Of a DNA stretch of 64,000 nucleotides, positions 7,132 to 64,000 are shown in pieces. The first letter of the stretch is position 1. Every line of letters begins with the position of its first letter. The stretch spans positions 186,001-250,000 of the forward strand of contig NZ_JAZIFX010000001.1 of the NCBI RefSeq assembly GCF_036634175.1. Direction: 5' to 3'. This DNA comes from Streptomyces sp. P9-A2 (GTDB taxonomy: Bacteria; Actinomycetota; Actinomycetes; Streptomycetales; Streptomycetaceae). A program made the position numbers and the translations under genes. The notes below the pieces were generated by a model, which was given only the letters and a program-made list of their open reading frames with translations, made no database searches and was not told the origin of the DNA.

Positions 7132-10100
7132 CTACGGCTTCTCCCGGTCGTGCAGGGCGCTCACCTCCTCGGCGGTGAGCGCCCTGTCGTACGCGTGGAC
7201 CTCGTCCACCGCGCCGTCCCAGAAGTCGGTGTCGCCGCCGTTCCACTGGGCGCGGCCCACGGCGAGCGGTCCGGAGCCGACGTAGGCGGGGCCGGCGGTG
7301 GAGGTCGCCGCCGGTTCGCCGTCGACGTAGAGGTCGATCTCGCCCCGCGCGTCGTCACGGACACCGACGAGGTGGTACCAGCGGCCCGTGTCCGGCTTCG
7401 TCTCCAGCCGGGCGCGCTTCCCGTCGGGGGTGCTGAAGGCGAAGGCGCCCTGCCCGTACTGCAGGTAGAAGGGGCTGGCCTGGCGCCGCCCGTCCTGACT
7501 GATCGCGGTGGCGTAGTTGCCGGGGAGCGAGTCGAGCCTGACCCAGCCGGCGACGGAGTAGCTGCCGGTGGTGTCGAGCACGGGGCCGTCGGTCTCGGCG
7601 TGCTGCCCCTGCCCGTCGAACTCGAGCGCGCTGCCGCTGACGCCGGGGGTCCAGCCGGCGCCTCCGGTGAGCGTCAGGGGCTTGCCGTTGGGGCCGCCGT
7701 CCTTCGCGGTCGTGCCGGTGCCCTCGTCGAGGGTCCAGTGGCCGCCGCCCTTCAGCTGCTCCCGCTCGCCCGCGGCGGCGCCGGCCGCGATGACCTTACG
7801 GTTGGCCTCGCGCACCCGGACCGGGTCGACCTTGATCTCCCGGCGGTCGTAGGTGTAGAGGCCGTTGAGCTCGTTCTCCAGGTCGGTGATTTGTGTGTAC
7901 ACCGAACCGGAGAGTTCGGCGGCGGCCTGGTCGAGGTAGAACCGCTCGGTGTTCTCCACGTACTTGCGGGTCAGCGCCTCCTTGTCGGCGACCCCGCTGT
8001 AGATCACCGTCGGCGTGCCCGGCCACATGTGGCCCGGGGTGCGCAGGGTGAAGCCGCCGTGCTCGCCGTCCATGGCCGCCCGGTGGTCGGGGAACGGCGG
8101 GTCGTCGTTGTTGTAGTCGTGGTGGTCGATGATGTCGCCCTTGCCCGAGTCACCCTTGGAGTTGCAGCAGTTGACACCGCTGTGGGCGTTGACGACGCGG
8201 GAGGGGTCGGCGGCCTTCACCGACTCGGCGATGCGACCGCTCTCCTCGCGGTTCCACTCGCCCCAGCCCTCGTTGAAAACGATCCAGCCGATGACCGAGG
8301 GCGAGTTGTGGTGCTGGCGCATCATCTCGCGGCCCTGGTCGACGAAGGCCTTCTGGCCGGTCTCGTTGGTGATGTTCCCGGAGACGAAGTCCTGCCAGAC
8401 CAGCAGGCCGAGCTTGTCGGCGTGGTAGAACCAGCGCGCCGGCTCCACCTTGATGTGCTTGCGGACGGCGTTGAACCCGAGCTTCTTGTGCGCCTCGAGG
8501 TCGAAGGCCAGCGCCTTGTCGCTGGGGGCGGTGTAGAGGCCGTCGGGCCAGAAGCCCTGGTCGAGGGTGGCGAGGGAGAAGACGGGCTTCCCGTTGAGCA
8601 CCAGCTTCTGGTAGCCGCCGACCTCCTCGATCCCGATCTCGCGCATGCCGAAGTAACTGCCGACCCTGTCGGCCGACCTGCCGTCGGTCAGTCTGACGTC
8701 GAGGTCGTAGAGGTAGGGGTCGTCGGGGCTCCACAGGTGCTGTTTCTTCACGGGGAGGTGGAGCCGGCGGTTGGCGGGCCCGCTGGCCTTGCCGACGACC
8801 TTCCCCCGGGCGTCGCGGGCGACGGCCTCCACGCGCGCCTTCCCGGAGGCGCCCTCGGACTCGACGGTCACCGCCAGGCTGCTGGTGTCGATGTCGGGCG
8901 TGGTGACGACGTTGTCGATGGCCGTGTCGGCGACGGGCTCCATCCAGACCGTCTGCCAGATCCCGGACGACTGGGTGTAGAAGATGCCGCTGGGGCTGGT
9001 GTGCTGCTTGCCCGTCGGCTGGTCGGCGCCGCCGGTGTCGGTGACCGCGACCACGACCTCCTGCGCTCCTCTGTCCTTGAGCGCGTCGGTGATGTCGGCG
9101 CTGAACGCGGTGTAGCCACCGGTGTGTTCGGCGACCTTCTTGCCGTTGACCCAGACGCGGGCCTGGTAGTCCACGGCGCCGAAGTGGAGCTTCAGCCGCT
9201 TGCCCTGGCCGACCTTCCAGTTCTTCGGCACTTCGACGAGCCTGCGGTAGAACATGTGGTCCTCGTGCCGTTCGAGCCCGGACAGCTGGGACTCGACGGG
9301 GAACGGCACGGTGATCTTCTCGTTCAGGTTCCTGCCGAAGACCGGCTGCTCGCCCGCCTTCGCGCCGCTGAACTGCCAGGTCCCGTTGAGGTTCTTCCAC
9401 TGGGAGCGCACCTGCTGCGGCCGGGGGTGCTCCGGCAGCGGGTTCTTCCTGTCCAGCTTGTCGGCCCACGGTGTGGTGAGCCGGTGACCGGAGGCGTTCG
9501 TGGCGTAGCGGACGATCCGGGGCACGGTCCTGCCGCCTGCCGTCAGCCCGCCTTCGCCGTCGTAGGTGAACCGGACCTGCTGGTTCTTCTGGACGGGCTT
9601 CGAGAGCGTGACGAGGAGGGAGGTACGGTCGCCGGGTACGGCCTTCACCGACGTGACCGGCATGGCGGTCGTGTCGGCCTCGATCTTCAGGTGCTCCGCG
9701 ACCTCGTCGAGGTCACCGACCCGTTCCTCGAAGCGGGCGCGCAGCCGCTTCCCGTCCTCGGCGACCGACAGGTCCACCGGAAAGACCTCGAAGCCTGCGG
9801 GCGGTGTGAACGCCGACTCGGGGACGAGTTGCTTGGGCGTCGTCGGGCTCGACCAGCGCAGGAACATGTTCGACCCGCCGAGGTCCTGGAACATCTCCAG
9901 CCGGAAGGTGTGCTTCTCACCGGCGGCCAGCCTGATCGGCTCGCTGGTCTGCTCCCTGTCCCAGTCCGGCTCCCAGTGGTCGATGACCGGCTTGTCGTCG
10001 ACGAAGAGGCGGAATCCGTTGTCGCCGGTGGCGTGGAACGTGTAGTCGCCGGTCGCCGGTGCCTCGATCTGCCCCGTCCAGCGGGCGGTCGTGTGCTCCG

Positions 10101-39082: not shown

Positions 39083-39303
39083 CAAGGTGGGCGCAGGCCT
39101 TCTCACTCCCGCGTCACCCCCACTCCGCCACCGGACCCTTCGTATGACGTGAATCACGTCAGGCTGAGGTCAGGAAACTGACCGGAAGGTGTCAGCCCGC
39201 TCCGCTTCCATGCCCGGTGGCCGAGCTTTCCGATTCCACAACTCCTGCTTCCTTTACGGCCGTTCCAGCCGGAAGCGCTCCCCCACGTCATGTAGGAGAT
39301 GCC

Positions 39304-40545
39304 ATGCCCGAGGCCCTGTCCTGCCCTGCCGGCGGCACCGCCGAGGAGTTGCCCGAGTATCCGCTGCCGCGGGCGGCGCAGTGCCCTCTGGCCCCGGCCC
39401 CGGCCGCGCAGGAGCTGCGGGCGGAGCGCCCGGTCACGAAGGTCCGCATCTGGAACGGCAGTACGCCCTGGCTGGTCACCCGGCACGCCGACCAGCGTGC
39501 CCTCCTGCCCGACCCCCGGGTGAGCGACGACGACCTCGACCCCGGCTTCCCCCATGTCAACGCCCACCGGGCGATGATCGCCCTGGCCACACCCCGGCTG
39601 ATCACGAACACGGACGCGCCGGAGCACACCCGGCTGCGCCGGACCGTCAACGGCCCGTTCCTGGTCAAGCGGATCGAGAGGATGCGGGCCCCGGTCCAGA
39701 AAATCGTCGATGACCTGATCGACACGATGCTGGCGGGCCCCCACCCGGTCGACCTGCTCACGGCGTTCGCGCTGCCGGTGCCGTCGCTGGTCATCGCCGA
39801 ACTGCTCGGGGTGCCCTATGAGGACCACGACTTCTTCCAGCGCAGCAGCAGCCTGGTCCTGGACGGCGCCGCGGCGCCCGAGGAGGCCCGGAGGGTCAGC
39901 GGTGAGCTGGCCGCCTATCTGAACGACCTGATCAGGCGGAAGACGGACGACCCGGGCGAGGATGTGCTCTCCGAGATGGCCGGCCGGGTCCGCGACGGGG
40001 AGATGTCGCACACCGAGGCCGTCCACATGGGCGTGGCGATGCTGATCGCCGGCCACGAGACGACCGCGACGATGATCAGCCTCGGCACCCTGGCGCTGTT
40101 CGAGCACCCCGACCAGCTCGCCCTGTTGCGGGAGACCGACGACCCGAAGCTGGTCGCGAACGCGGTGGACGAGCTGCTGCGCTACCTGACCATCGTCCAG
40201 ACCGGTGTGCGCCGGGTCGCCAAGGAGGACATCGAACTCGGCTCGGTGGTCATCCGCAAGGGCGAGGGCATCGTCTTCGACCTGCACGCGGCGAACTGGG
40301 ACCCGGAGGCGTTCCCCGAGGCCGGACGGCTGGACCTCACCCGCCCCGCCCGGGTCCACCAGGCGTTCGGCTACGGGCCCCACCAGTGCCTGGGCCAGAA
40401 CCTGGCCCGGCTGGAACTCCAGGTCGCCTACGGCACCCTCTACCGCCGCATCCCCACCCTGCGCGCGGCCGCCCCGATCGAGGACCTTTCCTTCGACCGC
40501 ACCGGGACGACGTACGGCGTCCACAGCCTGCCCGTCACCTGGTGA
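39304..40545 (+). CDS. Cytochrome P450 (three-component type)
   Basis: 413 aa soluble P450. I-helix oxygen-binding AGHETTATM, ExxR in ELLRYL and heme-ligand loop FGYGPHQCLGQNLAR are present; overall it resembles Streptomyces CYP105/107 enzymes. ATG 39304 is chosen because TAGGAG lies 6 bases upstream; the frame is open to 39217. It is followed by its own ferredoxin (55-base gap) and reductase, a complete electron chain. Substrate unknown. Confidence 0.93.
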   Translation: MPEALSCPAGGTAEELPEYPLPRAAQCPLAPAPAAQELRAERPVTKVRIWNGSTPWLVTRHADQRALLPDPRVSDDDLDPGFPHVNAHRAMIALATPRLITNTDAPEHTRLRRTVNGPFLVKRIERMRAPVQKIVDDLIDTMLAGPHPVDLLTAFALPVPSLVIAELLGVPYEDHDFFQRSSSLVLDGAAAPEEARRVSGELAAYLNDLIRRKTDDPGEDVLSEMAGRVRDGEMSHTEAVHMGVAMLIAGHETTATMISLGTLALFEHPDQLALLRETDDPKLVANAVDELLRYLTIVQTGVRRVAKEDIELGSVVIRKGEGIVFDLHAANWDPEAFPEAGRLDLTRPARVHQAFGYGPHQCLGQNLARLELQVAYGTLYRRIPTLRAAAPIEDLSFDRTGTTYGVHSLPVTW

Positions 40546-40600
40546 CCGGCCCCGCCCCCACCCCCACCGCACGACCGGCAGAACCGGAAGGACCGACCGA

Positions 40601-40807
40601 GTGACAACGACGCGTGTGGAACTGGACGAACCCAAGTGCGTGGCGTCGGGACAGTGCGTCCTGGCCGCCCCCGACGTCTTCGACCAGCGGGACGACGACG
40701 GAGTGGCGGTCCTGCTGGAGGAGTACCCCGGTGAGGAACTGCTCCACGACGCGCGCCAGGCCGAGGCGGTCTGCCCGGCCGCGGCGATCCGCCTGGTGGA
40801 GCGGTGA
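40601..40807 (+). CDS. Ferredoxin, 3Fe-4S type
   Basis: 68 aa. VELDEPKCVASGQCVLAAPDVF and AEAVCPAAAI supply the three cysteines of a [3Fe-4S] P450 ferredoxin. GTG start with GGAAGGA about 10 bases away. It passes electrons from the reductase, whose GTG overlaps its stop as GTGA, to the upstream P450. Confidence 0.92.
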   Translation: MTTTRVELDEPKCVASGQCVLAAPDVFDQRDDDGVAVLLEEYPGEELLHDARQAEAVCPAAAIRLVER

Positions 40808-42042
40808 GACGCGTCGTGGTCGTCGGCGCATCGGCCGCCGGACTCGCTGCGGCCGAGACCCTGCGCCGGGCGGGCCACGACGGCCCGCTCACCCTCGTCG
40901 GTGACGAGCCGCACGTCCCGTACGACCGTCCTCCGCTGTCCAAGCAGATCCTCTCCGGCGCGTGGCCGACCGGACGGCTGCCGTTGCGCCGGGACGAGGA
41001 CCTCGACGCCCTGGACCTGGACCTGAGGCTGGGAACGGCGGCGACCGGGCTGGACCTGGCGGACCGCACGGTCCGGCTGGCCGACGGGTCGCGGGTGCCC
41101 TACGACGGGCTGATCGTGGCCACGGGCGTGCGTCCCCGGCGGCTGCCCGGCGAGGGAGCGCACGTCCTGCGCACGCTGGACGACGCCCTCGCGCTGCGTG
41201 ACGTGCTGACGCCGGGCACCAGGCTCGTCGTGGTGGGCGCCGGGTTCCTCGGTGCCGAGGCCGCCGCCGTCGCCCGGGGCCTGGGCGCCCATGTCACCCT
41301 GCTCGAGCCGTCTCCCGCCCCGCTGGCCCACGCCGTCGGCACCGAGGTCGGCGGGATGCTCTCCCGCGTCCATCTCGACCACGGCGTGGAGTTGCGCACC
41401 TCGGTCACCGTGACGGAGGTGACCGAGGACGGCGTGCGGCTGGCCGGCGGCGAGGTGGTCGAGGCCGACGAGATCCTGGTCGCCGTCGGTTCGCTGCCGA
41501 ACACCGGCTGGCTCGCGGAGAGCGGGCTGGCGCTCGGCGACGGCGTGATCTGCGACGAGTACTGCGAGGCCGCACCGGGGGTGTACGCGGCCGGTGACAT
41601 CGCCCGCTGGTACAACCCGCTGTTCGGGACGTCGATGCGGATCGAGCACCGTACGAACGCCGCCGAGCAGGGCATGGCCGCCGCGCGCAACCTGCTCGCC
41701 GCGCCGGAGGCGCGCACGCCGTTCGCGCCCGTTCCGTACTTCTGGTCCGACCAGTACGGCCTGCGGATCCAGGCTTACGGCTACCTGCGCGGCCACGACG
41801 AAGTCACCGTCGTGGACGGGGACACGGCCGGGCGGCGGTTCGTCGCCGCCTACCGCAGGGGCGGAAGACTCACCGGCGCACTGGCGGTGGGCATGCCGCC
41901 CAGGGCCGTCCGCGCCTGGCGGAAGGCCGTCGCGGACGGTACGGCCTGGCACGAGGCCGTACGGGACGAGGCTGCCGCCCCCGACGGCCTCATCGGCATC
42001 GGTCATCACCACGGCAAGGAGACCTCCCATGCACGACAGTAG
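40804..42042 (+). CDS. NAD(P)H ferredoxin reductase (FAD)
   Basis: 412 aa. N-terminal FAD motif RRVVVVGASAAGLAAAETLRRAG, then VPYDRPPLSKQIL, the NAD motif RLVVVGAGFLGAEAAAVARGLG and the C-terminal GVYAAGDIARWYN. Family: ferredoxin reductases of oxygenase systems. Overlaps the ferredoxin by GTGA and the following SDR gene by 14 bases. Confidence 0.92.
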   Translation: MRRVVVVGASAAGLAAAETLRRAGHDGPLTLVGDEPHVPYDRPPLSKQILSGAWPTGRLPLRRDEDLDALDLDLRLGTAATGLDLADRTVRLADGSRVPYDGLIVATGVRPRRLPGEGAHVLRTLDDALALRDVLTPGTRLVVVGAGFLGAEAAAVARGLGAHVTLLEPSPAPLAHAVGTEVGGMLSRVHLDHGVELRTSVTVTEVTEDGVRLAGGEVVEADEILVAVGSLPNTGWLAESGLALGDGVICDEYCEAAPGVYAAGDIARWYNPLFGTSMRIEHRTNAAEQGMAAARNLLAAPEARTPFAPVPYFWSDQYGLRIQAYGYLRGHDEVTVVDGDTAGRRFVAAYRRGGRLTGALAVGMPPRAVRAWRKAVADGTAWHEAVRDEAAAPDGLIGIGHHHGKETSHARQ

Positions 42043-42871
42043 GGACGACCGGTCGCGTGACGTGGTCGTCGTCACCGGAGCGGGCGGGATGGGGTCGGCG
42101 GTCGCCCGACGGCTGGGCAGCGGGCGGACGCTGATCCTCGCCGACGCGTCCCGCGCCCGGCTGGACGAAACGGTGGACGCGCTGCGCGCCGAGGGGTACG
42201 CGGTACGGGGCGTGCCGACCGACGTCCGCGACCGTGCGGCGGTGGAGCGACTGGCCCGGACCGCGGCCGGGGCGGGGCGGATCACGGCCGTCGTGCACAC
42301 GGCCGGGGTGGCCGCCGCGACCGCCTCGGTGTCCAGGATTCTCGAGGTCGACCTGCTCGGCACGGTGTACGTCATCGAGGCTTTCGAGCAGGTGGCCGTC
42401 CGTGGCACGTCGCTGGTCTGCGTCGCCAGCGTCGCCGGGCACATGGCCTCGATCGGCGCCGAGGACGAGGCCTCCCTGGCCACGGCACCCGCGGACCGGC
42501 TGCTGGGCCTGGACGCGGTCACCGGCCTCGGCGACGATCCGACGGCCGCCTACATCCTGGCCAAACGGGCGAATCTCCTGCGGGTGCAGGCCGCCGCCCT
42601 CGCGTGGAGCCGGCTCGGCGCCCGCGTCAACACGGTCAGTCCGGGCATCGTCGCCACCGCGATGGCGACGGCGGAGGCCGACGCGGACTCCGACGGGCAC
42701 ATGATGAGAATGCTCGACGCGTGCGGCGCCGGCCGCCCTGGTACACCCGCCGAGATCGCCGACGCGGTGGCCTTCCTCACGGATCCGCACTCCTCGTACA
42801 TCACCGGCGCAGACCTGCTCGTCGACGGCGGTCAGACGGCATGGATCCGGCACCACATGCCCCGCGGGTGA
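42029..42871 (+). CDS. Short-chain dehydrogenase/reductase with a shifted active-site region
   Basis: 280 aa, last gene of the P450 operon. The cofactor motif VVVVTGAGGMGSAVARRLG is clear, and VASVAG gives the catalytic Ser; YILAKRANLLRVQAAAL provides YxxxK. An insertion of about 30 residues lies between these, and the NNAG motif is replaced by VHTAGVAAA. RBS AAGGAGA precedes the ATG inside the reductase 3' end. It may oxidise the P450 product. Confidence 0.9.
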   Translation: MHDSRDDRSRDVVVVTGAGGMGSAVARRLGSGRTLILADASRARLDETVDALRAEGYAVRGVPTDVRDRAAVERLARTAAGAGRITAVVHTAGVAAATASVSRILEVDLLGTVYVIEAFEQVAVRGTSLVCVASVAGHMASIGAEDEASLATAPADRLLGLDAVTGLGDDPTAAYILAKRANLLRVQAAALAWSRLGARVNTVSPGIVATAMATAEADADSDGHMMRMLDACGAGRPGTPAEIADAVAFLTDPHSSYITGADLLVDGGQTAWIRHHMPRG

Positions 42872-46841: not shown

Positions 46842-48000
46842 GTAGACGCATTTCAAGGCCGCGGTCTCGTTCGGGAAGTGGCCGCGGGCCTTGGCTGCTC
46901 GCCGGATCCTGGCGTTCACCGACTCGATGGCGTTCGTGGTGCAGACGATGCGTCGGATCTCGGTGTCGAACCGGAGGAACGGCGTGAACTCTTCCCACGC
47001 GTTCTCCCGGAGCCGGACGATCGCCGGATACTTCTTGCCCCACACGTCGACGAACTCCGCGAACCTATCGAGCGCGGCCTCCTCGGTCGAAGCGGTGTAA
47101 ACGGGCTTGAGGAGCTTGGCGATCTTGTCCCAGTCCTGGCGGGCGGCATAACGGAAGGAGTTCCGCGGCAGGTGGACCACACAGGTCCGGACGATCGTCC
47201 TCGGCCAGACCGTTTCGACCGTGTCGGGCAGGCCTTTGAGACCGTCGCAGACAAGCATGAGGACGTCGTTCACGCCGCGATTCTTGATCTCGGTGAGGAC
47301 GTGCATCCAGTGCTTGGCGCCCTCTCCGCCGTCTCCGGCCCACAGGCCCACAGGCCCACAGGCCCAGGATGTCCCGCCGGCCCTCGACGGTGACGGCCAG
47401 GGCCACACAGATCGGCCGATTCGCCACGGCGCCGTCGCGGATCTTCACGTGGACGGCGTCGAGGGACCGGTTCTGCCGTTCGGCCATGCCGTCCATGACC
47501 TTGTCGGTGATCGTGGAGATGGTCCGGCGGGAAACTTCGGCGCCATAGACCTCGGCCAGATGGGCCTGGACCTCACCGGTCGTCAGACCCTTCGCGGACA
47601 GAGAGATCACCACCTCGTCCACGCCGGACAGGCGCTTCCGCCGCTTCTTGACGATCTTCGGCTCGAAGCTGCCCTCGCGGACGCGGGGCACGGTTATCTC
47701 GACCGGGCCGACGTTCGTCAGCACGGTCTTGGCCCGGGTCCCGTTCCGGCTGTTGCCGCCGTTCTTCCCGGCAGGGTCGTGCTTGTCATAGCCGAGGTGG
47801 TCGGTGATCTCGCCTTCGAGGGCGGACTCCAGGAGCCGCTTGGTCAGCTGCTGGAGCAGCCCGCCTTCTCCGGTCAGCTGCAGCCCCTCGGCCTGGGCGC
47901 GGCCGACCGACTCGTCGATGAGCTGGTCGGCCGCGCCCTTCGCCGGCTGCGGCTCAGCGGCCTTGACGGACTCGTCCTCGGTCACGTTGTCGCTGGTCAT
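46842..48000 (-). pseudogene. IS256-family transposase, frameshifted and missing its C-terminus
   Basis: Mutator-type transposase. N-terminal part from ATG 48000 (GEITDHLGYDKHDPAGKNGG, VPRVREGSFEPKIVKKRR, DDE Asp in DAVHVKIRDG) runs to GRRDILGLWA, where three copies of an 8-bp unit shift the frame; the second frame gives GDGGEGAKHW, Asp in LVCDGLKGLPD and Glu in CTTNAIESVNARIRR, up to AALKCVYL near 46842. One unit would encode the normal GLWAGDGGEG. The true last 40 residues are at 45606-45725. Confidence 0.85.
47337..47360. repeat. Three copies of 8-bp unit inside IS256 transposase
   Basis: GGCCCACA repeats three times perfectly. A single copy keeps the transposase frame; two extra copies add 16 bases and shift it by +1. 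A further copy (24 extra) would restore the frame with 8 added residues. Confidence 0.9.
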
Positions 48001-52388: not shown

Positions 52389-55300
52389 ATGAACGGACCC
52401 ATGAACACCGCGACCCTGCTGGACGTCCTGCTGGACGCCGCCCACCAGTCCCCCGACCAGCTGATCGTCCATGTCCGGGGCGACGGCGGCGAGACGGTCG
52501 TCACCTTCCGGGAGCTCGTGGCCGAGTCGCTGCGCGTCGCGGGCGGTCTTCGTACCGCGGGCGTCGCGCCGGGCACCTGCGTTCCGGTGCTCGCGGAGCA
52601 CAGTGCGGACTTCCAGCCCATGTTCTGGGGCGTGCTCGCGGCCGGTCTGGTGCCGGTGCCGCTCGCGCCCGACGTGCGGCGGGTCCGGCCGGTGTGGGAG
52701 CAGCTCGGCCGCCCCCCGGTCGTGGTGGACGCGGCCTGCGCGCCGGTGGCCGCCGAACTCCCGGACGATGCCCGGATCCTGCGGCTCGACGTGCTGCGGG
52801 AGGGCCCTGCGCCGGCCTCCCCCGCCACGCCGGATCCGGACGGACTGGCCTTCCTGCAGTTCTCGTCCGGCAGCACGGGGGCGCCCAAGGGCGTGGAGCT
52901 GACCCACAGGGCCGTGCTGGCGAACCTGCGGCAGCTGACCGAGGCTTCCGCCCTCACGGAGCAGGACGTGGTGGTCAGCTGGATGCCGTACTTCCACGAC
53001 ATGGGGCTCATCGGCACGCATCTGGCACCGCTGGCCGCGCGGGCCAAGCAGGTGAAGATCGGTCCCCTGTCGTTCGCGAAGAATCCCCGGCTGTGGTTCG
53101 ACGTGGCCGCCGCGCATCGGGGCACCGTCCTCTCGGCCGCCAACTTCGCGCTGGCGCTGACCCTGCGCCGGGTTCCCGAGGAGGTGTTCGCCTCCCTGGA
53201 CCTGAGCGCGGTCCGGCTGATCACGGTGGGGGCCGAACCGATCTCGGCGACGGTGTGGCGGGACTTCGCCGCCAGGACCCGCGCCTCGGGGCTGGATCCG
53301 CGGGCGGCGACGCCCGTGTACGGGCTGGCCGAGGCGACGCTGGCCGTGGCGTTCCCGCCGTTGGGCGAGGTGGCCGCGCCGGTGACCGTGGAACGTGCCG
53401 CCCTCGGCCGGGGCCGCGTGGTGGACGGGGAACCCGGTGGTGACGCGGCGGAGTCGGTGGAACTGATGGACGTCGGGGTGCCGGTGCCGGGCTGCTCGGT
53501 GCGGATCACCGACGAAGCCGGCCGGCCGCTGGGCGACCGGCGGGTGGGGCACATCGAGGTGAGCGGGCCGCAGATCGCCCGCGGCTACCACGGCCTGCCG
53601 GACGTGACGGCGCGGTCCTTCACCGACGGGTGGTTGCGCACCGGTGACCTGGGCTTCCTCCGGGACGGCCGGCTGTGTGTCAGTGGCCGGTTCAAGGACG
53701 TCCTGTTCGTCAACGGCCGTACGTTCCACGCCCCGGACCTGGAGGAGGTGGCGTCCGGCACACCGGGGGTACCGGCCGGGACGACGGTGGTGGTCGGGTC
53801 GACCGATCCGGTGTCCGGCGGGGAGCGGGTAGCGGTGTTCGTCGCCTGGGCGCGGCCGCCGCGTACCGCCTCCGAGGTGCTGAACCGGGTCGCGCGGCGG
53901 ATCCGCGCGGCGCTGGGCCACGACGACGTGCGGGTGTTCGCCCTGCCGCCGTCCGCGTTCCCCCGGACGACGAGCGGCAAGGTGCAGCGGCAGCGGATGC
54001 GGTCCCGGTTCGAGGCGGACGGGTACCGGCCGTCGGCTCGTTCCGGTACGGCGGCGGGCTCGGGTGCCGTGGCGGGTGATCCGGTGGAACGGTCTCAGCG
54101 ACCGTCGTCGTCCGGGGACCGGCGGGCAGTGCCCCGTTCCCGTGGGGACGTGCGACGGGTGGTGCGTGAGGTGTGGGCTGCGGTCCTGGGACTGTCCGAG
54201 GCGTCGTTCGGGGACCGGGACCGGTTCGCCGAACTGGGCGGCACCTCGCTGCGGGCCATGGAGGCGCTCGCCTCGCTGGAACGTTCCCTCGGTGTCTCGC
54301 TGGGTCCGGCGGTGATGCGCAACGACACCGTCGCCACGCTCACCGACCATCTCATGGGCGTCGTCGAGGCGGACGGCACAGGGGCGGACGACACACGGGC
54401 GGGCGGCGCCGGGACGGGCGGGCGAAAGGCCGCGTCCGCTGCCGGCGGGGCGTCCGCGACCGCCGTGGTGGGGCTGGCCTGCCGGTTCCCGGGGGCCGAC
54501 ACGCCGGAGGAGTTCTGGGACCTGCTCACCGCCGGCCGCGACACCGTGTCCGCGGTGCCCCCGGACCGCTGGGGCACGGGTCGCCGGCACACGGACGGCT
54601 CCAGGGGACTCGAGGCGACCGGCCGCTGGGGTGCGTTCCTGGACGACCCCGCCGCCTTCGACGCCGCCCACTTCGGCATCGGCGACGAGGAGGCGCGCGC
54701 GCTGGACCCGCAGGCGCGCGTCTTCCTCGAACTCGCCCACGAGGCGTTGGAACGCGCCGGGTACGCCGGACCCCGCCGCCGGGCCCTGCGGACCGGGGTC
54801 TTCGCCGCCGTCGGCGACAGCGGCTACCGGCAGCTCCTGGCGGACGCGGACACCGCCGGTACGCCGCCGACCGCCACGGCCCTGACCGGCAATCTCCCCA
54901 ACCTGGTCGCCGCACGGCTGGCGCACTGCCTCGACCTGGACGGACCGGCGCTCGTCGTGGACACGGCGTGTTCCTCGGGTCTGGTGGCGCTGCACCTGGC
55001 CCGGCGCAGTCTCGCGGACGGCGAGTGCGACGTCGCGGTCGTGGGCGGGGTCAACCTGCATCTCACCGCGTCGGCGCACCAGGCCCTGGAGGCGGCCAAG
55101 GCCCTGTCGCCGACCGGGCGCAGCCGTGCCTTCAGCTCGTCGGCCGACGGGTTCGTGCCCGGCGAGGGCGGCGCGGTCCTCGTCCTGCGGCGGCTCGACG
55201 AGGCCCGGCGGGACGACGACGAGGTCCTGGCCGTCGTGCGCGGCACCGCCGTCAACAACGACGGTACGTCGCTGAGCCTGATGGCACCCAACCCGCTGCG

Positions 55301-58300
55301 CCAGCGCGAGGTGATCGGCCGCGCCTACGAGCAGTGCGGGGTCGACCCGGCGTCGGTCTCGTACGTCGAGGCCCACGGCACGGGTACGGCCGTCGGCGAT
55401 CCGATCGAACTGCGGTCCCTCGCCCATGCCTTCCCGGCCCGCCCGGACGGCCGTCCCCGGCTGCTCGGCTCGGTGAAGACCAACATCGGGCACCTGCTGA
55501 ACGCGGCGGCGCTCCCCTCGCTCGTGAAGGTGGTGCTGGCCCTCGGGCACGGGCGCCTCCCGGCCTCGCTGCATCACACACCGGTCTCGCCCGCCGTCGA
55601 GCAGTCGGGGTTCGCCCCGGTGACGGAGGTGACGGCCTGGGAGTCGTCCGGGCCGCGCAGGGCGGGGATCAACGCCTTCGGCTTCGGCGGCACCAACGCG
55701 CACGCCGTTCTGGAGCAGGCACCACCGCGCACGGCGGACGCGCCGCGCGGGGACGACCGGACGGTGGACCGGAACGACTCCGGCCCGAGCCTGCTCACTC
55801 TCTCGGCGGGCAGTGCGGCCGGGCTCGACGCGTGGACGGCGCGCATCTCGGACCATCTGGGCGAGCACCCGGAGTTCGAGGAGGCGGACGTCTGTGGGGC
55901 GGCGGGTGCCGCACGCGACGAACGGCCGCACCGTCTCGCCGTCGTGGCCGTCGGCGACCTGCGCGAACGGCTCGCCTCGGTACGCGCCGCCGACGGCTCG
56001 CCCGTGCGGGGCGCGGCCGCCGGGACGGTGACGCACCGGCCCCGGACCGTCTACGTGTTCCCCGGTCAGGGCGGTCTGCGACCGGGGCAGGGGCGGGAGT
56101 TGTACGCCACGGCGCCCGTGTACCGCGCGACGCTGGACGAGGCGTCGGGGCTGGTGGGAGCCGTGCACGGGCGGGAGTTGACGGCCTGGTGCGTGGACGG
56201 CGACATCGGCGACGACGCGCTCGCCGCGACCGAGGTGGCGCAGCCGCTGCTGGTGGCGCACGGCGTCGCGCTCGCCCGGCAGTTGGCGGCTTGGGGGGTC
56301 CGGCCCGACGCGCTGATCGGACACAGCGTCGGCGAACTGACGGCTGCCTGCGTCGGCGGCATGCTGTCGCTGTCCGACGCGGTGCTGTTCGCGGCGGAAC
56401 GGGGACGGCTCATGGGCGGGTCGACCGCACCGGGTGCCATGGCGGCGGTACGGGGCGCCGAGGAAGGCGAGGTGGAGTCGCTGGTGGCCGCGTCCCCGGA
56501 CGACCTCGCGGTGGCGGCGTACAACGGCCCCGGCCGGCTGGTGCTGTCCGGCTCCCCGGACGCGGTCCGGCGGGCGTCGGAGCGGCTCACCGGGCACGGC
56601 GCGACGGTCCGTCCGCTGACGGTGCCGCGCGCCTTCCACTCGCCCCTGATGGAGCCGGTCGCGCACGCTTTGAGCAGTGCGGCGCGCAGGCTGACGGTGT
56701 CGGCTCCCGAACTCGCCGTGATGAGTACACTCACCGCCGCGTGGCAGCCTCGGCTGGATCCGGACCATCTACGGGAACACGCCGTGCGACCGGTGCTGTT
56801 CGGCCGGGCCGTGGAGCGTCTGCTGGACGAGGGCTACGACACGTTCGTGGAACTCGGGACGGGTGAGAACCTCGCGGGTCCGATCCGGGCGGTGGCCGCC
56901 GGTCGCCGGGTCGACGGCGCGGCGCACGGCGCTCTTGTGGTGTCCGCCCCCGCAGCACCGTTCGACGGCTCAGAAGCGCCGGGCGGAGCACGGGAGTTGA
57001 TGGATACGGTGGCGCGACTGTGGGTGCGCGGGGTGCCCCTCGACCGTACGGCGCTCGACGCGGGGGCCCGCAGGGTGCCGCTGCCGCCGTACCCGTACCA
57101 GCGGCGCAGGCACTGGCCCGAGCCCGATGCGCGCGGACTACTGCACCGCGTCGAGTGGCGGCCCGCTCCCCTGCCCGGCGACGACCTTCCCTTTTCCGGC
57201 CTTCCCACTGCCGGCCTTCCCGGCCCGGTGCTGGTGACCGGAGCGGACGCCTCGGCGGTACGCCGGACGGCGGACGGGCTCGCGGCCCTCGGCATACGGG
57301 CGGTCACGGCCGGCCACGGTGATGTCCGTCCACAGGCCGTGGTCCTCCTCGGCCGCCGGGTCCGGCGGGACGCGCCGGACCCGGCGAACCCGGCGGGCGG
57401 CCTCGACGCGGAGCTGCGGCAGGCGGTCGCGGCGTTCCGGGAAGCCCTCGCGTCGCTGGACCGGGCCGGGGCCCGCCGACTGCTGGTCGTGACCGAGGAC
57501 GCGCACGTCACCGGGCACGGTGCGGAGCAGCCGGTGCCGGCGCAGGCGGTCCTGGGCGGTCTGGCCCTGGCCGTGCCGGAGGAGTCGGCCGGCGTGGTCG
57601 CGAACTGGGTGGACCTCTCGTCCCACGCCCTCCCCGACGCTCCCGACGCTCCCGACGCTCCCGACGCTCCCGACGCCGAAGGCTGGCTGCGTTGCCTGGC
57701 TGCCGAGTTGACGGCGCCGCAGGCGACGGGAGCGATCGCCTGGCGGGCCGGACAGCGCCTTGTGCGTTCCGTCGCGCCGGGACCGGGGCAAGGGCCGGGT
57801 CCGGTGGGAGAACCGGGCGGACGTGACCGCCCGGAGCGGCTGCCGGCCGACGGTACGTTTCTGATCACGGGCGGCGCCGGGGGCATCGGGTCCGCCCTGG
57901 CCCGGGACCTGGCGGGCCGGGGCCGGCCGGTCCTGGTGCTGGTGGGACGTTCCCCGCACCCGCCCGCGGGCCTGTTGAAGGAGCTCGCCGGTCTTGGTGC
58001 CGAGGCCCGCTACGTCATGGCGGACCTCACGGTGCCCGGTGACGTGGAGCGGCTCGTGGGCGAACTGCCGCCGCTGGATGCCGTGTTCCACGCAGCCGGT
58101 GTCGTACGGCCCGGCAGCCTGCGCGGGGCGGACATGCCGGAGACCGTGGAGGCGCTGGGCGCGAAGACCCTCGGCACGGTGCTGCTGTCCGGGGCACTGC
58201 GGCGGCACGGTCAACGTCCGGGGGTGTGCGTCGCGTTCTCCTCGGTGTCGTCGGTGCTGCACGGCCTGGCGGGTGCGCTGGGTTCCTACGCCGCGGCGAA

Positions 58301-61300
58301 CGCCTTCCTCGACTCCTTCGCCGGAGCCGAGTCCCTGGCGGGCCGGCCCTGGCTGTCGGTGAACCTGGGTCCGTTCGCCGAAACCGGCCTCGCGGTCACC
58401 GCGGGCGCCGGGGCACTCGCCGCCGGTGCGGGCGGTGGGGGCCGTCCTCTGGCAACCGCGTCCGCGCTGGCCGCACTGCGGGCGGCGTGTGCCACCGGCG
58501 CGACGCAGCTGGTCGTCGCCGACCTGGTGCCCGGGGCACAGCCGGCCGCCGCCCCGCCGCGTCCGGTACGGCCCACGGGCGTCGAGAGCGCCGAGAGCAT
58601 CAAGGGCGCCGCCGGGTCGGCCGGCACCGGCCGGCACCGGCCTCCGTTGTCCTCCGGCACCGCTGTCGTCCTGCGGGAACTGCTGGCCCAGTCGCTCGGC
58701 ATCCCGGCATCGGGCGTCGACGACGACACGCCGTTCCTGCGGCTCGGGCTGGACTCGCTGGGCGCCGTCGACCTCGTCAAGCGGCTGGAGCGGAGGCTCG
58801 GACGGCAGCTGCCCACCACGCTCTTCTTCGAACACCGGACGGTGCGCGAACTCTCCGCCCATCTGGACCTGGAGGGGCGCACCGGTGCGCCGTCCCGGGC
58901 AGCGGCGGAGGACCAGGTGGCGGGTGCGGGGAGCGGGCTCGGAGACGGTCCGGGCCATGGGCCCGGGGACGGGAGCAACGACGGACGGGCATTCGCCCTG
59001 ACCCCCGTGCAACTGGCGCTGTACACCAGCAGCCGGTTGCATCCGGACCTCCCGGCCCGGGGTCATCTGCGGCTGACCGTTCGGGGCCCGCTCGACACCG
59101 GTCTGCTGGGCCGGGCGCTGACGGCGCTGACCGAACGGCACGGCATGCTCCGGCTGCGGGTGGAGGCCCCGGACGGGGTTCCCGTGCAGCGTGTGGCGCC
59201 TCCGGTACCGCTGCGGGACTGGTTCGAGGTGCGCGACTGCGCCGCCGACGAGGTGGCCGGTGCCGAGACGGCCGTGTGCAACCGGCCGTTCGACCTGGCG
59301 GCGCTGCCGCCCGTCCGGGCCGTGCTGCTCCGTCAGGATCCGGGGCTCGCCCATCTGGTGCTGGTGGTGCACCACGCTGCGGCGGACGGCTACAGCTTGA
59401 ATGTTCTCGCCGAGGAACTGTCCACCACGTACACCGATCTGTACCACGGACGGCGTCCGCGACAGGCACTTCCCGCACCGGACTTCGCACGGTACGCGTC
59501 GAGCCTGCCACCTTCCGGATCCGCCGAGCGGCAGGCCGACCGGCAGTACTGGGCCGAGCGGCTCGCCACGCGCGGCGAACCCCTCCGGCTGCCCTACGAC
59601 AGCGGTCCCGACACGCCGGCCTCCGACCCGTCCGGCCCGATCGTGCAGTACTACGGCGAGCTCGGCGCGGATCTCACCACCGGCCTGGAAGAACTGGCCG
59701 CCGCGCGGGACGTCTCCCTGTTCCACCTGCTGCTCGCCGCGTATGTGCGCTGTCTGGCCCGCTGGTCGGGGCGCCGGGACGTGGCCGTGAACGTGGCCAG
59801 GGCGCGTCGCGAGGACCGTTTCGACGGTGTGGAACGGCTGGTCGGTCCGCTCGCCGACACCCTTCCCCTGCTCTGTGGGACGGCGGACGACGAGACGGTC
59901 GTCGCCCTGGCGGAGCGGTTGCGCGGGATATGGCTGCGGAGCGAGCAACACGCCGGGCTCAGCAGCCTGGACCTGGCCGCGCTGCTGCCCGGCGCGCGTC
60001 CCGGTGACGGCACCGACCCGCGTGCCGGTTCCAGTACCTGTACCGAAATCGGTACCGGTTTCGGCGACCGCACGGTGAGCCCGGCGGGCTTCAGCTTCGC
60101 TCGCTTCCCGGCGGAGCCGGCCGCCGACTGCCCGGTGGAGATCCGGGCGACCGCGGCCGGCACCGGGTCGGCCGCGACCCGGCTGAGCCTGCTGTGCTGG
60201 GCTGACGGTCCGCAGTTGCGGCTGTCGTGGAACTATCCGGAGCCGCTGTTCCAGCGGACCACCGTGGCACGTCTGGACCGGGAGTTCCGCGCCGAACTGG
60301 CCGCGCTGTGCACACCCCGGCCGTCGCGGCTGTTGCCGGACACCGGCCCCGCACCCGCCCTCGCCCTCGCCCTCGCGCCCACCCCCGCCCCGGCCCCCGC
60401 CTCCGTGGCGCCGCCCTCGTCCGTGCGGAGCGATGGGAGCGTCCCGCTGGTCGCGCGACTGCTCGGCCGGTTCCGGGCGACACCCGGCGCGGTCGCCGTG
60501 GATGCCGCCTATGCCATCGATGCCGCGGACGCCGTGGGCACCACGGACGCTTCGCTCACATACGGGGCGCTCGACCGGGCCTCCGCCCGGCTCGCCGCAC
60601 GCCTGCACGCCCGCGGCGTACGCCCCGGCGATCTGGTCGGGCTGCTCACCGAGCCGGGCGCCGACACCGTCGTCGGTGTCGTGGGCATCCTGCGCGCCGG
60701 GGCCGGCTGGGTCCCGCTCGACCCGGAACACCCCACCGCACGGCTGGCCGGCCAGCTGGCCCGCACCGGCGCGACCACCGTGGTGTGCCACGCCGCCACC
60801 CGGCACACCGCCGCCGCTCTGACGGCCGTACGGGCGGTACCCGTCGTCGACGACAGCCCGCCGGCCACGAGCGCGGACACCGGGGCCGGCGTGACCGCAC
60901 CCGCGACCGCGGCCGCTCCCGCCTCGTCGTCCGACGCCGAGGCGATCGCGTACGTCATCTTCACCTCCGGTTCCACGGGACGCCCGAAGGCGGTGCCGAT
61001 CACTCACCGGGCGATGGAGAACTATCTCGACTGGGCGGTCACCACCTTCGGCTACGGTCCCGGCGACCGCCTCGCGCAGACCGCGTCGCCCTGCTTCGAC
61101 GCCTCGGTACGCCAGTTGCTCGCACCACTTCTGGTCGGCGGCACCGTCGTGACCGTGCCGCGCGGCCTGTTGCGGGATCCCGAGCTGCTCCTCACGCGGG
61201 TCGAGCACGCGCGGGTCACCGTGTGGAGCTCGGTTCCCACACTGTGGGAGCAGTTGCTGTCGGCCGCCGAAAAAAGGGCTCTCCTGTCGGATCCGTGGGT

Positions 61301-61355
61301 CATCGGGTTGCGAGTTGACGGCCGGGTAGTTGAGGTCGGTGGCCGCCGAGGCTGA
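52389..61355 (+). CDS. Hybrid PKS-NRPS: FAAL-ACP-KS-AT-KR-ACP-C-A (interrupted by ISL3)
   Basis: Giant assembly-line enzyme; true sequence ends near residue 2962 and the last 26 codons are IS DNA. Fatty-acyl-AMP ligase 1-560 (FSSGSTGAPKGV); ACP with GGTSL (about 620); KS about 690-1110 (DTACSSG, EAHGTGT, KTNIGHL); AT about 1220-1500 (GHSVGEL with RAFH: malonyl type); KR (TGGAGGIGSALA about 1825, GSYAAANAF about 1965, no LDD motif); ACP GLDSLGA (about 2119); condensation domain HHAAADG (about 2327); adenylation IFTSGSTGRPK (about 2856). Expected chemistry: acyl starter, one malonyl extension to a beta-hydroxy acid, then an amino acid. ATG 52401 is an alternative start. Confidence 0.93.
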   Translation: MNGPMNTATLLDVLLDAAHQSPDQLIVHVRGDGGETVVTFRELVAESLRVAGGLRTAGVAPGTCVPVLAEHSADFQPMFWGVLAAGLVPVPLAPDVRRVRPVWEQLGRPPVVVDAACAPVAAELPDDARILRLDVLREGPAPASPATPDPDGLAFLQFSSGSTGAPKGVELTHRAVLANLRQLTEASALTEQDVVVSWMPYFHDMGLIGTHLAPLAARAKQVKIGPLSFAKNPRLWFDVAAAHRGTVLSAANFALALTLRRVPEEVFASLDLSAVRLITVGAEPISATVWRDFAARTRASGLDPRAATPVYGLAEATLAVAFPPLGEVAAPVTVERAALGRGRVVDGEPGGDAAESVELMDVGVPVPGCSVRITDEAGRPLGDRRVGHIEVSGPQIARGYHGLPDVTARSFTDGWLRTGDLGFLRDGRLCVSGRFKDVLFVNGRTFHAPDLEEVASGTPGVPAGTTVVVGSTDPVSGGERVAVFVAWARPPRTASEVLNRVARRIRAALGHDDVRVFALPPSAFPRTTSGKVQRQRMRSRFEADGYRPSARSGTAAGSGAVAGDPVERSQRPSSSGDRRAVPRSRGDVRRVVREVWAAVLGLSEASFGDRDRFAELGGTSLRAMEALASLERSLGVSLGPAVMRNDTVATLTDHLMGVVEADGTGADDTRAGGAGTGGRKAASAAGGASATAVVGLACRFPGADTPEEFWDLLTAGRDTVSAVPPDRWGTGRRHTDGSRGLEATGRWGAFLDDPAAFDAAHFGIGDEEARALDPQARVFLELAHEALERAGYAGPRRRALRTGVFAAVGDSGYRQLLADADTAGTPPTATALTGNLPNLVAARLAHCLDLDGPALVVDTACSSGLVALHLARRSLADGECDVAVVGGVNLHLTASAHQALEAAKALSPTGRSRAFSSSADGFVPGEGGAVLVLRRLDEARRDDDEVLAVVRGTAVNNDGTSLSLMAPNPLRQREVIGRAYEQCGVDPASVSYVEAHGTGTAVGDPIELRSLAHAFPARPDGRPRLLGSVKTNIGHLLNAAALPSLVKVVLALGHGRLPASLHHTPVSPAVEQSGFAPVTEVTAWESSGPRRAGINAFGFGGTNAHAVLEQAPPRTADAPRGDDRTVDRNDSGPSLLTLSAGSAAGLDAWTARISDHLGEHPEFEEADVCGAAGAARDERPHRLAVVAVGDLRERLASVRAADGSPVRGAAAGTVTHRPRTVYVFPGQGGLRPGQGRELYATAPVYRATLDEASGLVGAVHGRELTAWCVDGDIGDDALAATEVAQPLLVAHGVALARQLAAWGVRPDALIGHSVGELTAACVGGMLSLSDAVLFAAERGRLMGGSTAPGAMAAVRGAEEGEVESLVAASPDDLAVAAYNGPGRLVLSGSPDAVRRASERLTGHGATVRPLTVPRAFHSPLMEPVAHALSSAARRLTVSAPELAVMSTLTAAWQPRLDPDHLREHAVRPVLFGRAVERLLDEGYDTFVELGTGENLAGPIRAVAAGRRVDGAAHGALVVSAPAAPFDGSEAPGGARELMDTVARLWVRGVPLDRTALDAGARRVPLPPYPYQRRRHWPEPDARGLLHRVEWRPAPLPGDDLPFSGLPTAGLPGPVLVTGADASAVRRTADGLAALGIRAVTAGHGDVRPQAVVLLGRRVRRDAPDPANPAGGLDAELRQAVAAFREALASLDRAGARRLLVVTEDAHVTGHGAEQPVPAQAVLGGLALAVPEESAGVVANWVDLSSHALPDAPDAPDAPDAPDAEGWLRCLAAELTAPQATGAIAWRAGQRLVRSVAPGPGQGPGPVGEPGGRDRPERLPADGTFLITGGAGGIGSALARDLAGRGRPVLVLVGRSPHPPAGLLKELAGLGAEARYVMADLTVPGDVERLVGELPPLDAVFHAAGVVRPGSLRGADMPETVEALGAKTLGTVLLSGALRRHGQRPGVCVAFSSVSSVLHGLAGALGSYAAANAFLDSFAGAESLAGRPWLSVNLGPFAETGLAVTAGAGALAAGAGGGGRPLATASALAALRAACATGATQLVVADLVPGAQPAAAPPRPVRPTGVESAESIKGAAGSAGTGRHRPPLSSGTAVVLRELLAQSLGIPASGVDDDTPFLRLGLDSLGAVDLVKRLERRLGRQLPTTLFFEHRTVRELSAHLDLEGRTGAPSRAAAEDQVAGAGSGLGDGPGHGPGDGSNDGRAFALTPVQLALYTSSRLHPDLPARGHLRLTVRGPLDTGLLGRALTALTERHGMLRLRVEAPDGVPVQRVAPPVPLRDWFEVRDCAADEVAGAETAVCNRPFDLAALPPVRAVLLRQDPGLAHLVLVVHHAAADGYSLNVLAEELSTTYTDLYHGRRPRQALPAPDFARYASSLPPSGSAERQADRQYWAERLATRGEPLRLPYDSGPDTPASDPSGPIVQYYGELGADLTTGLEELAAARDVSLFHLLLAAYVRCLARWSGRRDVAVNVARARREDRFDGVERLVGPLADTLPLLCGTADDETVVALAERLRGIWLRSEQHAGLSSLDLAALLPGARPGDGTDPRAGSSTCTEIGTGFGDRTVSPAGFSFARFPAEPAADCPVEIRATAAGTGSAATRLSLLCWADGPQLRLSWNYPEPLFQRTTVARLDREFRAELAALCTPRPSRLLPDTGPAPALALALAPTPAPAPASVAPPSSVRSDGSVPLVARLLGRFRATPGAVAVDAAYAIDAADAVGTTDASLTYGALDRASARLAARLHARGVRPGDLVGLLTEPGADTVVGVVGILRAGAGWVPLDPEHPTARLAGQLARTGATTVVCHAATRHTAAALTAVRAVPVVDDSPPATSADTGAGVTAPATAAAPASSSDAEAIAYVIFTSGSTGRPKAVPITHRAMENYLDWAVTTFGYGPGDRLAQTASPCFDASVRQLLAPLLVGGTVVTVPRGLLRDPELLLTRVEHARVTVWSSVPTLWEQLLSAAEKRALLSDPWVIGLRVDGRVVEVGGRRG
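61269..61276. repeat. Target-site duplication, left copy (ISL3)
   Basis: GAAAAAAG is present here and again at 62692-62699, directly flanking the element's GGCTCTCC ends. An identical 8-bp pair indicates a simple and recent insertion. Confidence 0.95.
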
Positions 61356-62691
61356 GCATCGCGAGGGCGATGAGGGACTTGGGGTCCTTGAAGCCGAAGG
61401 CGATGCGGGTGATCAGTCGGATTTTGGTGTTCATGGACTCGACCAGGCCGTTGCTCAGCCCGTGCTCGGCGGCGGCGGTGATGGCGTCGAAGTGTCTGAC
61501 GATGCTGCGTTGCAGCTCGACGAAGGCCGCTATCCGTGAGCGGCGGGCCCAGAGCACCCAGTCCCACAGCGCCTCGGTGGTGTCGGGGCCCTGCTTGAGG
61601 GCGGTGCGCAGACCTTCCTTGAGCAAGTACGCCCGGTGCAGCAGCGGGTGAGCCTTGGCGATGAAGAGCAGCTGGGCCCGCTGCCCGGCCGTGAGGTCCT
61701 CGGGGTTCTTCCACAGCGCGAAGCGGGCTTTCTTCAGGGACTTTGAGCCCCGGGTGGATCTGCCCTTGCCTCCGCGCTCGGCGTTCCACACCTGACGGCG
61801 CACGACGTCCAGGGCGTCGGTGGTCCACTGAACGACGTGAAAGGGTCCATCACCCGTACCGCCTGCGGGCAGCGCTCGGCGACCACCGTGGAGATCCAGT
61901 CGGCCGCGTCCGCGGACACGTGGGTGAGCTTCGCGGCGCGCTCGTTGCCCAGGGCGTCGAAGAACTTACGCAGGGTGGCCTTGTCCCGGCCGGCCTCAGC
62001 CCAGACCAGACGCCCGGAGTCGTGATCCACCACGACGGTCAGGTACTTGTGGCGCTTCTTGTAGCTGATCTCGTCAATACCGATCCGTCGTAGCCCGGCG
62101 AACAGGTCCACCGACTTCTCGACGTCCGCCCAGACCCGGGCGACGATGTTGCCTACCGTGCGCCACCCGGTCCGCATGAGCTGGGTGACGGACGTCTTGG
62201 AACAGCAGGTCGCCAGCCAGGCCACCTGCGTGTCGAACGCCAGGGTATGTCCGGCGCCGTGTCTCGCCCAGGGAACCGAGGCGACCACTATGCCGTGCTC
62301 GGGGCAGGAGACCCGGGGCGCGTCGGCCTCGAGGAATGCCTGGATGACGCCCAGGTCCAGGGCCCGCCAGCGTCGGCGTCCCTCACCGGCGTCGTACTTC
62401 GCCGCCTTGCGCCGGCAGATCCCGCACCGCTGCCTGTGGCCCTTCGCCGGTCGGACATGCGCCACGATCACCAGCTCACCACCGACACCGCCCTCGGGGT
62501 CGGCCTCCTCGGCCTCGACCTGCTCGATCAGCGTCTTTTCGACACCGAGCAACCGAACCCATATCCTCTTACTTTGCACGCCGTATCCAGGTTTATTCGT
62601 TTCGTACCTTCAGCAGTCGAAACGTACCCCGGGTACGGCGTGTTCTGCGTATCAGCCCTGGTCAACGACCCACGGATCCGACAGGAGAGCC
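61277..62691 (-). mobile_element. ISL3-family insertion sequence
   Basis: 1415 bp. Inverted ends share GGCTCTCCTGTCGGATCCGT and 5 more bases (25 in all), flanked by 8-bp duplications. The only gene is a frameshifted transposase on the minus strand. It lies inside the adenylation domain of the PKS-NRPS gene in antisense orientation. Confidence 0.95.
61300..62579 (-). pseudogene. ISL3-family transposase with one-base frameshift
   Basis: N-terminal part from 62579 has the zinc finger CGICRRKAAKYDAGEGRRRW and a second Cys/His in CPEHG, then catalytic Asp blocks GIDEISYKKRHKYLTVVVD and VSADAADWI to VMDPF. There TTTCACGTCG lacks one C against the expected PFHVVQWTTDALDVV; the other frame continues with RRQVWNAERGGKG and the DDE Glu region NGLVESMNTKIRLITRIAFGF, ending at 61300. 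The break is near 61840. Confidence 0.85.
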
Positions 62692-62700
62692 GAAAAAAGG

Positions 62701-64000
62701 GCACGGAGCAGGGCGGGGCTGCCTGATCTGACGGCGTTGCGGTGGGTGCATGTCGGTGGGGAGGCGCTGCCCGTGGACCATGTGCGCCGCTGGTTCGACC
62801 TGTTCGGGGACGGAGCGCGGATCGCCAACATGTACGGACCCACCGAGACGACCATCAACGCCACCTGCCAGATCCTCGACGCCCGTCCCGGCGACGAGGT
62901 GCGGCAGGTGCCGATCGGGCGCCCCGTGGCCGGTACGGACCTGGAAGTGGTCCGCGCCGACGGAACCGTCTGCGCGCCGGGCGAACCGGGGGAGCTGCTC
63001 ATCTCCGGTGTCGGCCTGACCCCCGGCTACCTGGGCGAACCGGAGCTGACCGCACGGGCGTTCACCGTGCGGGCGGGCCGGCGCTGGTACCGCAGCGGGG
63101 ACCGGGTCCGCCGGTCGGCCGACGGCACCGTGGAGTTCCTCGGCCGGGTCGACGACCAGGTGAAGATCCGCGGGAACCGGGTGGAGCCGGGAGAGGTCGA
63201 GGCGGCGCTCCAGGAGTGTCCCGGGATCGCGCGGGCGGTGGTGGCGGCTCACGAGGGACAGCTGCTCGCCTTCGTCACCCTCCGGCCCTCGGCCGACCGG
63301 CCCGGCACCCGGGAGATACGCCGCCGTCTGGCCGGCGTTCTGCCGTCGTACATGCTCCCGGCCCGGATCACGTGCGTCGACGCGCTGCCCCTCACGGGCA
63401 CCGGCAAGGTCGACCGCCTGGCGCTGGTGGACCCGTCCTCCCGGCCCGGCCCGGCGGTGCCGGACAACGACGGGGCCTCCCCGCCGGTCACGGCGACCGA
63501 ACGACGCGTGGCGGCGATCTGGTCGGACCTGCTCCGGGTGGAACCGGTCCGCCGGGAGGACGACTTCTTCGACCTGGGCGGGGACTCGCTGCTCGTCCTG
63601 CGCGTGTTCGCCCGGCTCGCGGAACACGAAGTGCCGTTGCCCCGGCCGACGGTGATCTACCGTCATCGCACGCTCGCGGAACTGTCCGCGGCCATCGACG
63701 CCGTCGCGACCGAGCCGGAGCCGCGCTCCTCCACCACGGCCTCGGCCTCCGTCTCCGCGCCCCCGGCCGGACAGTCCCTCCCGGCCGGTGACGACCGGAC
63801 GTCCCCTTTCCCCGTCACACCCGGCCAGCGCGGGTTCCTGCTCGCGGAGGCTCTCACGCCGGGCGGCGGGGCCTGGCTGGCACGGATTCGGCTGTCCGGA
63901 CCGCTGGACCCCGAGGTGTTCCAGGCGGCGGTCGACCTGCTGGTGGAGCGGCACGGCATGCTCCGTACCGTCTTTCCCGCCGGGGCCCGTCCGCCCGTCC
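62701..64000 (+). CDS. Hybrid PKS-NRPS continued: A (rest)-PCP-C (open at window end)
   Basis: Frame +1 is open from the insertion scar to base 64000. The adenylation domain resumes with LRWVHVGGEALP, NMYGPTETTINATC, YRSGDRVRR, FLGRVDDQVKIRGNRVEPGEVE and closes with LPLTGTGKVDRLAL. A PCP follows (FFDLGGDSLLVLRVF), then the start of a second condensation domain (FPVTPGQRGFLLAE, LLVERHGMLRTVF). Deleting 61277-62699 rejoins it in frame to 52389. Substrate code read from A4-A5 and the C-terminus: D-A-R-S-V-V-M-I-N (plus Lys), which I cannot assign. Confidence 0.88.

Follow-up and report, generated by a model that had tools for sequence, protein, structure and literature searches.

An ISL3-family element inserted at an A/T run splits a solitary FAAL-PKS-NRPS gene in Streptomyces sp. 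P9-A2, an apparently young loss

The target duplication left by insertion sequences of the ISL3 family is 8 bp long. To our knowledge, ISL3 elements are not known to act as precisely excising switches. A second field of comparison is the release of nonribosomal products by amidation: in the hectoramide B and vatiamide pathways an amidation domain follows the PCP, and amidation in the cyanobacterial pathways is itself presented as a hypothesis (PMC10949194). Both subjects bear on the locus described here, a 64,000-nucleotide stretch of Streptomyces sp. P9-A2 DNA that we call the window, in which an ISL3-family insertion sequence lies inside a synthetase gene whose last domain resembles the carmabin TAD. 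We consider it very probable that the element transposed into an A6 run apparently made in this lineage, within the A domain, that it thereby split a solitary FAAL-PKS-NRPS gene, and that the loss is young.

The insertion sequence occupies window positions 61277–62691 (1,415 bp) and encodes its transposase on the minus strand. Its terminal inverted repeats, 25 nt each, lie at 61277–61301 on the gene's upstream side and at 62667–62691 on the downstream side, and the two ends pair perfectly (25 of 25 positions complementary). Identical plus-strand copies of the 8-bp sequence GAAAAAAG flank the element at 61269–61276 (left) and 62692–62699 (right). The raw direct repeat at the ends of the window element is 14 nt long because the adjoining target bases extend, by coincidence, the GCC/GGC at the ends of the element; a 14-bp duplication was rejected since a second genomic copy and a plasmid copy, described below, show clean 8-bp duplications. 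All three copies with at least 97% identity have exact 8-bp duplications, and chance repeats were ruled out because the same chromosome carries a full second copy (1,416 bp) with a duplication of its own. The Pfam families PF01610, PF13542, and PF14690, which between them cover the DDE_Tnp_ISL3 domain, the ISL3 zinc ribbon, and the HTH, all scored above cut-off, and the transposase of the intact copy reached 258 bits against NCBIfam NF033550 (cut-off 180). These results agree with the initial annotation, made from the letters of the DNA, as to the ISL3 identity, the 25-bp inverted ends, and the identical flanking duplications. It had the anatomy right almost to the base, but its figure of 1,423 bp is the element plus one duplicate rather than the element alone, and it missed a frameshift in the transposase.

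The second copy is located 319 kb from the window copy (G000:C1:566242–567657), and the genome contains no other full copy. Its target duplication, given in the same orientation, is GTAAAAGC, and its transposase is a single frame of 426 residues. The two genomic copies differ solely by one G, in a run of three in the window copy and four in the second, with zero substitutions between them. The second copy splits an LmuA-like gene (locus L008, G000:C1:565000–569000, gene pieces at 475–1218 and 2643–3986), the pieces of which match Lamassu LmuA in PADLOC (E values of 1.5e-66 and 2.7e-114); the same element has likely also broken a phage-defence gene.

The element is rare in Streptomyces: scoring two candidates per genome, we found it in 7 of 392 genomes at E ≤ 1e-50, and, on the same basis, no copy of more than 82% identity among these genomes outside the element's own. 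Streptomyces sp. NBC_00841 has a linear plasmid of 1.5 Mb that carries a 97.5% identical copy, in which the transposase is one long frame and the target duplication is AGAAAAAG. This plasmid copy suggests a mobile source, and the element probably reached this Streptomyces lineage by way of a plasmid or some other mobile DNA. Other transposase genes also flank the locus, one of the Mutator family at window 47065–48000, with a partial profile match only, and one of the IS4/5 type at L007:6373–7257.

The targets of the element share a distinctive base composition. Ten of the 12 loci with a copy were counted (in the alignments of L114 and L117 the element's left end is absent), and all 10 targets contain an A/T run of at least 4, compared with 0.47% of the 8-mers in the window. 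Three of these 10 have exact duplications on both flanks, the flanks of L122 agree at 7 of 8 positions and those of L112 mismatch, and in the other five one flank was read. The element thus follows rare A/T runs. GAAAAAAG holds the sole A/T run of at least 6 in the interrupted gene, whose G+C content is 74.8%, and window positions 1–61268 contain no other A6 or T6. At the same place S. hirsutus has GAGGAAAGG, and the A6 run was absent from all 12 relatives whose site was read, so it seems to have arisen by substitutions in the window lineage and to have made the target. Such a preference explains why a gene of 75% GC was hit at this single spot.

The interrupted gene is encoded on the plus strand. 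Its 5′ part (52389–61276) specifies FAAL-ACP-KS-AT-KR-ACP-C and the first part of A, with active-site motifs present; the reading frame starts at the ATG at 52389 and crosses into the element, where it meets a stop at 61355, giving 2,988 aa. The 3′ part (62701–64000) specifies the rest of A, the PCP, and the start of a second condensation domain (C2), and continues past the window through C2 and a TAD-like domain to the gene's stop at G000:C1:252378. The full domain order is FAAL-ACP-KS-AT-KR-ACP-C-A-PCP-C-TAD-like, and the insertion falls after residue 2,962, between the A motifs A3 (residue 2,859) and A5 (right-half residue 43). Counting codons from the ATG at 52389 puts 61277 at a third codon position, and the right half stays open when read from 62701; by this arithmetic the two halves are in phase. 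In S. hirsutus (L032) the stretches aligned to the two halves lie 3 nt apart, which corresponds to the split codon, and the proposal that removal of the element restores the frame is thereby upheld.

The rest of the gene is undamaged, as had been claimed for the part within the window. No stop was found in the 4,187 codons of both halves (split codon excluded), and a search for frameshifts beyond the insertion, extended past the window to the gene end, found none. All 17 active-site motifs sought were present, with patterns that were composed with the sequence in view, and the last domain has kept all 76 residues that are invariant in 41 relatives. When the last 595 residues were used to search the strain's own genome for a paralogue that might replace the gene, the only match was the gene itself.

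The genes around the synthetase are unrelated to it: a WGR/beta-propeller protein is encoded upstream, and TerB and GH16 proteins are encoded downstream. These three families occur near the gene in 4, 7, and 7, respectively, of 80 named loci (the best 80 of 458 obtained when the right half was used to scan named genomes), close relatives among them, and other neighbors surround the gene in other clades. As the unrelated neighbors recur in close relatives, the gene appears to stand alone in this clade as a one-gene locus, and the idea of a partner gene nearby was rejected because the neighboring genes are unrelated. Elsewhere in the window, positions 39154–42522 hold a frame of 1,122 residues with coding-like base composition, for which neither Pfam nor PADLOC gave a family at E 0.001.

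The site of insertion was then compared across relatives. The best 80 of the 458 loci were supplemented with 19 loci from other genomes of the genus, found with the left flank, and each gene half was aligned separately to the resulting 99 loci. On both sides, 94 of the 99 aligned, and 83 of these are distinct (11 are the same loci found twice). The gap between the aligned stretches in the 94 loci was at most 30 nt, and at most 6 nt beyond what unaligned residues explain. None of the 83 distinct relatives alignable on both sides has the element at this site, and none of the 99 loci contains any match to it, which speaks against an element conserved in relatives. Five loci were unscored: L062, L080, and L110, which meet contig ends; L082, which is broken; and L043, the left side of which did not align. 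Of the 391 other genomes in the genus, 62 gave a strong DNA match to the 1-kb left flank (E ≤ 1.5e-63), a DNA match to this domain being no proof of orthology, and a further scan of 61 genomes gave three with a match, the strain's own genome included. A single frame of at least 3,500 residues is present in 68 of the 80 named loci, again the best 80 of 458. Of the 12 loci that have no such frame, L082 is broken, 10 run in from a contig end, and L083 starts 174 nt from one.

How long ago the gene was lost was estimated from its divergence. The dN/dS ratio against S. hirsutus was 0.34 for the left half and 0.37 for the right, at a dS of 0.12–0.13 (Nei-Gojobori), and comparison with 11 further relatives gave 0.30–0.41 for the window gene and 0.30–0.41 for the intact S. 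hirsutus gene. Since the window gene's ratio is like that of an intact gene, no relaxation is visible and the loss looks young, although pairwise dN/dS is hardly sensitive to a short relaxed phase. With equal branches assumed and indels not counted, the finding of zero stops bounds the neutral time to about 0.013–0.015 substitutions per site, or 22–25% of the lineage's half of the S. hirsutus distance. Dating by the identity of the two genomic copies was dropped because the window copy could be the donor. The description of the loss as recent is carried by the gene's integrity; the lack of stops, taken alone, gives no tighter limit than the 22–25% above. On these sequence comparisons, the pathway would have been active until recently.

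These data also bear on the possibility that the gene was already useless in this clade, the insertion being a neutral late event and not the cause of the loss. In the close relative G316 (L126, G316:C47:11001–31000), whose upstream neighbor region is 93% identical to that of the window, two deletions of about 4.5 and 2.3 kb have removed parts of the syntenic gene, and each shifts the frame; in Streptomyces sp. HM190 (L082, around 9900–10000), a short repetitive stretch that ends in a stop takes the place of part of the same A domain, close to the position of the window's insertion. Judging from these sequences, gene loss is not unique to the window strain in this clade, and G316 seems to have lost the gene independently via two deletions, although the lesions in G316 and HM190 may be assembly errors. 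Against earlier decay in the window lineage itself, the gene there has, insertion aside, no lesion, all the motifs sought, and a dN/dS like that of the S. hirsutus gene, which is intact. We therefore regard prior uselessness as improbable and favor the insertion as the cause of the loss. The suggestion that sister strains may have kept the pathway intact is borne out by S. hirsutus, but apparently not by the close relative G316.

The condition of the window copy's transposase bears on two further alternatives. This copy encodes the transposase on the minus strand in two overlapping frames instead of one: an N-terminal piece of 281 aa (61734–62579) with the zinc ribbon, the HTH, and the beginning of the DDE domain, and, in a different frame, a C-terminal piece of 167 aa (61300–61803) that completes the DDE_Tnp_ISL3 domain. 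Compared with the intact copy, one base is missing adjoining window position 61842. Ten of the 11 loci other than the window copy cover the frameshift site (L114 does not), and all 10 alignments open a gap in the window copy; the intact copy and these alignments together indicate that the window copy lost one base. L113 shows a gap of opposite sign a few bases from the site, and its copy looks damaged too. The base loss created a heptamer, C-CCT-TTC, of the form X-XXY-YYZ on the minus strand (window 61838–61848), which, read by eye, is placed exactly where a −1 slip would restore the transposase frame; it is probably accidental. That the frameshift is itself an assembly error, leaving the element fully autonomous, has some force, as the two copies are distinguished solely by the length of a G run, three versus four, a typical long-read error. 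However, the assembly consists of 2 contigs and the second copy holds the longer run, and we consider such an error rather unlikely. The initial annotation, for its part, had called the insertion reversible, in which case occasional precise excision would let it switch the pathway genetically. Recombination between the 14-nt direct repeats at the element's ends is conceivable, the genome's intact transposase could work in trans, and a −1 slip at C-CCT-TTC would restore the resident frame; yet that resident transposase is frameshifted relative to the intact copy and the other copies covering the site, and the single isolate gave no sign of a locus that was empty or carried a footprint. A reversible switch is thus very improbable.

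Taken together, these results show that an ISL3 element, of which the genome now has two near-identical copies, transposed into the A6 run with an 8-bp duplication and split an enzyme of 4.2 thousand residues between A3 and A5; its arrival through a plasmid or some other mobile DNA and the order of events are inferred. The intact copy elsewhere in the genome would have supplied, or could supply, the transposase. The upstream product is predicted to end in the element and to lack half of A, the PCP, the second C domain, and the release domain, so that the synthetase could not finish or release its product. The truncated 2,988-residue protein would be unable to load an amino acid or release the chain, and the pathway would presumably be off.

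The gene family is widespread in actinobacteria and common in Streptomyces, and it is of more interest than what is otherwise an ordinary insertion. Among the best 80 of the 458 loci are some from Micromonospora, Actinoplanes, and Kineococcus; a search of plasmids gave a single distant match, in Streptomyces fungicidicus (81% identity over 73%). The literature search, as far as its sources extend, returned no paper on the family or its product. In right-half coordinates, the PCP occupies positions 269–332, condensation begins at 371, and the TAD-like domain spans about 850–1225. This last domain has no Pfam match at E 0.001 (L010:2560–3684) and, in 79 of the 80 stretches aligned from the named loci (the best 80 of 458), contains no stop. 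By its own sequence it resembles the TAD of cyanobacterial carmabin biosynthesis (PDB 9e4s, 9e4u, 9e4x, 9e50, and 9e56), and the structure predicted for its S. hirsutus orthologue, with a mean pLDDT of 91.5, matches that domain in fold. We tentatively propose that the family makes a beta-hydroxyacyl amino-acid derivative released by the TAD-like NAD-binding domain, possibly as a primary amide. This proposal, which we would rate at somewhat below even, is a joint one: it includes a widespread actinobacterial one-gene family and a mode of release that we encountered only in cyanobacterial pathways. If it is true, the natural knock-outs (the window strain and G316) beside the intact gene of S. 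hirsutus NRRL B-2713 would offer ready-made comparisons for finding the product.

Set against the carmabin TAD, the window gene differs in having a second condensation domain between the PCP and the TAD-like domain, which accordingly does not follow the PCP directly. Like other members of the ISL3 family, the element has one minus-strand transposase with zinc ribbon, HTH, and DDE_Tnp_ISL3 domains, perfect terminal inverted repeats, and an 8-bp duplication, but the transposase of the window copy is frameshifted; as a kind the element is an ISL3 element, and the window copy is a damaged one. The A/T-run preference was observed in the present element. As in other cases in which insertion sequences inactivate bacterial biosynthetic genes, a simple insertion in the coding region has cost the downstream domains. 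The insertion itself is routine gene loss, and its value lies in providing a natural knock-out of a common actinobacterial synthetase gene. The mechanism is no different from that of those other cases; only the target, a solitary FAAL-PKS-NRPS, sets this one apart.
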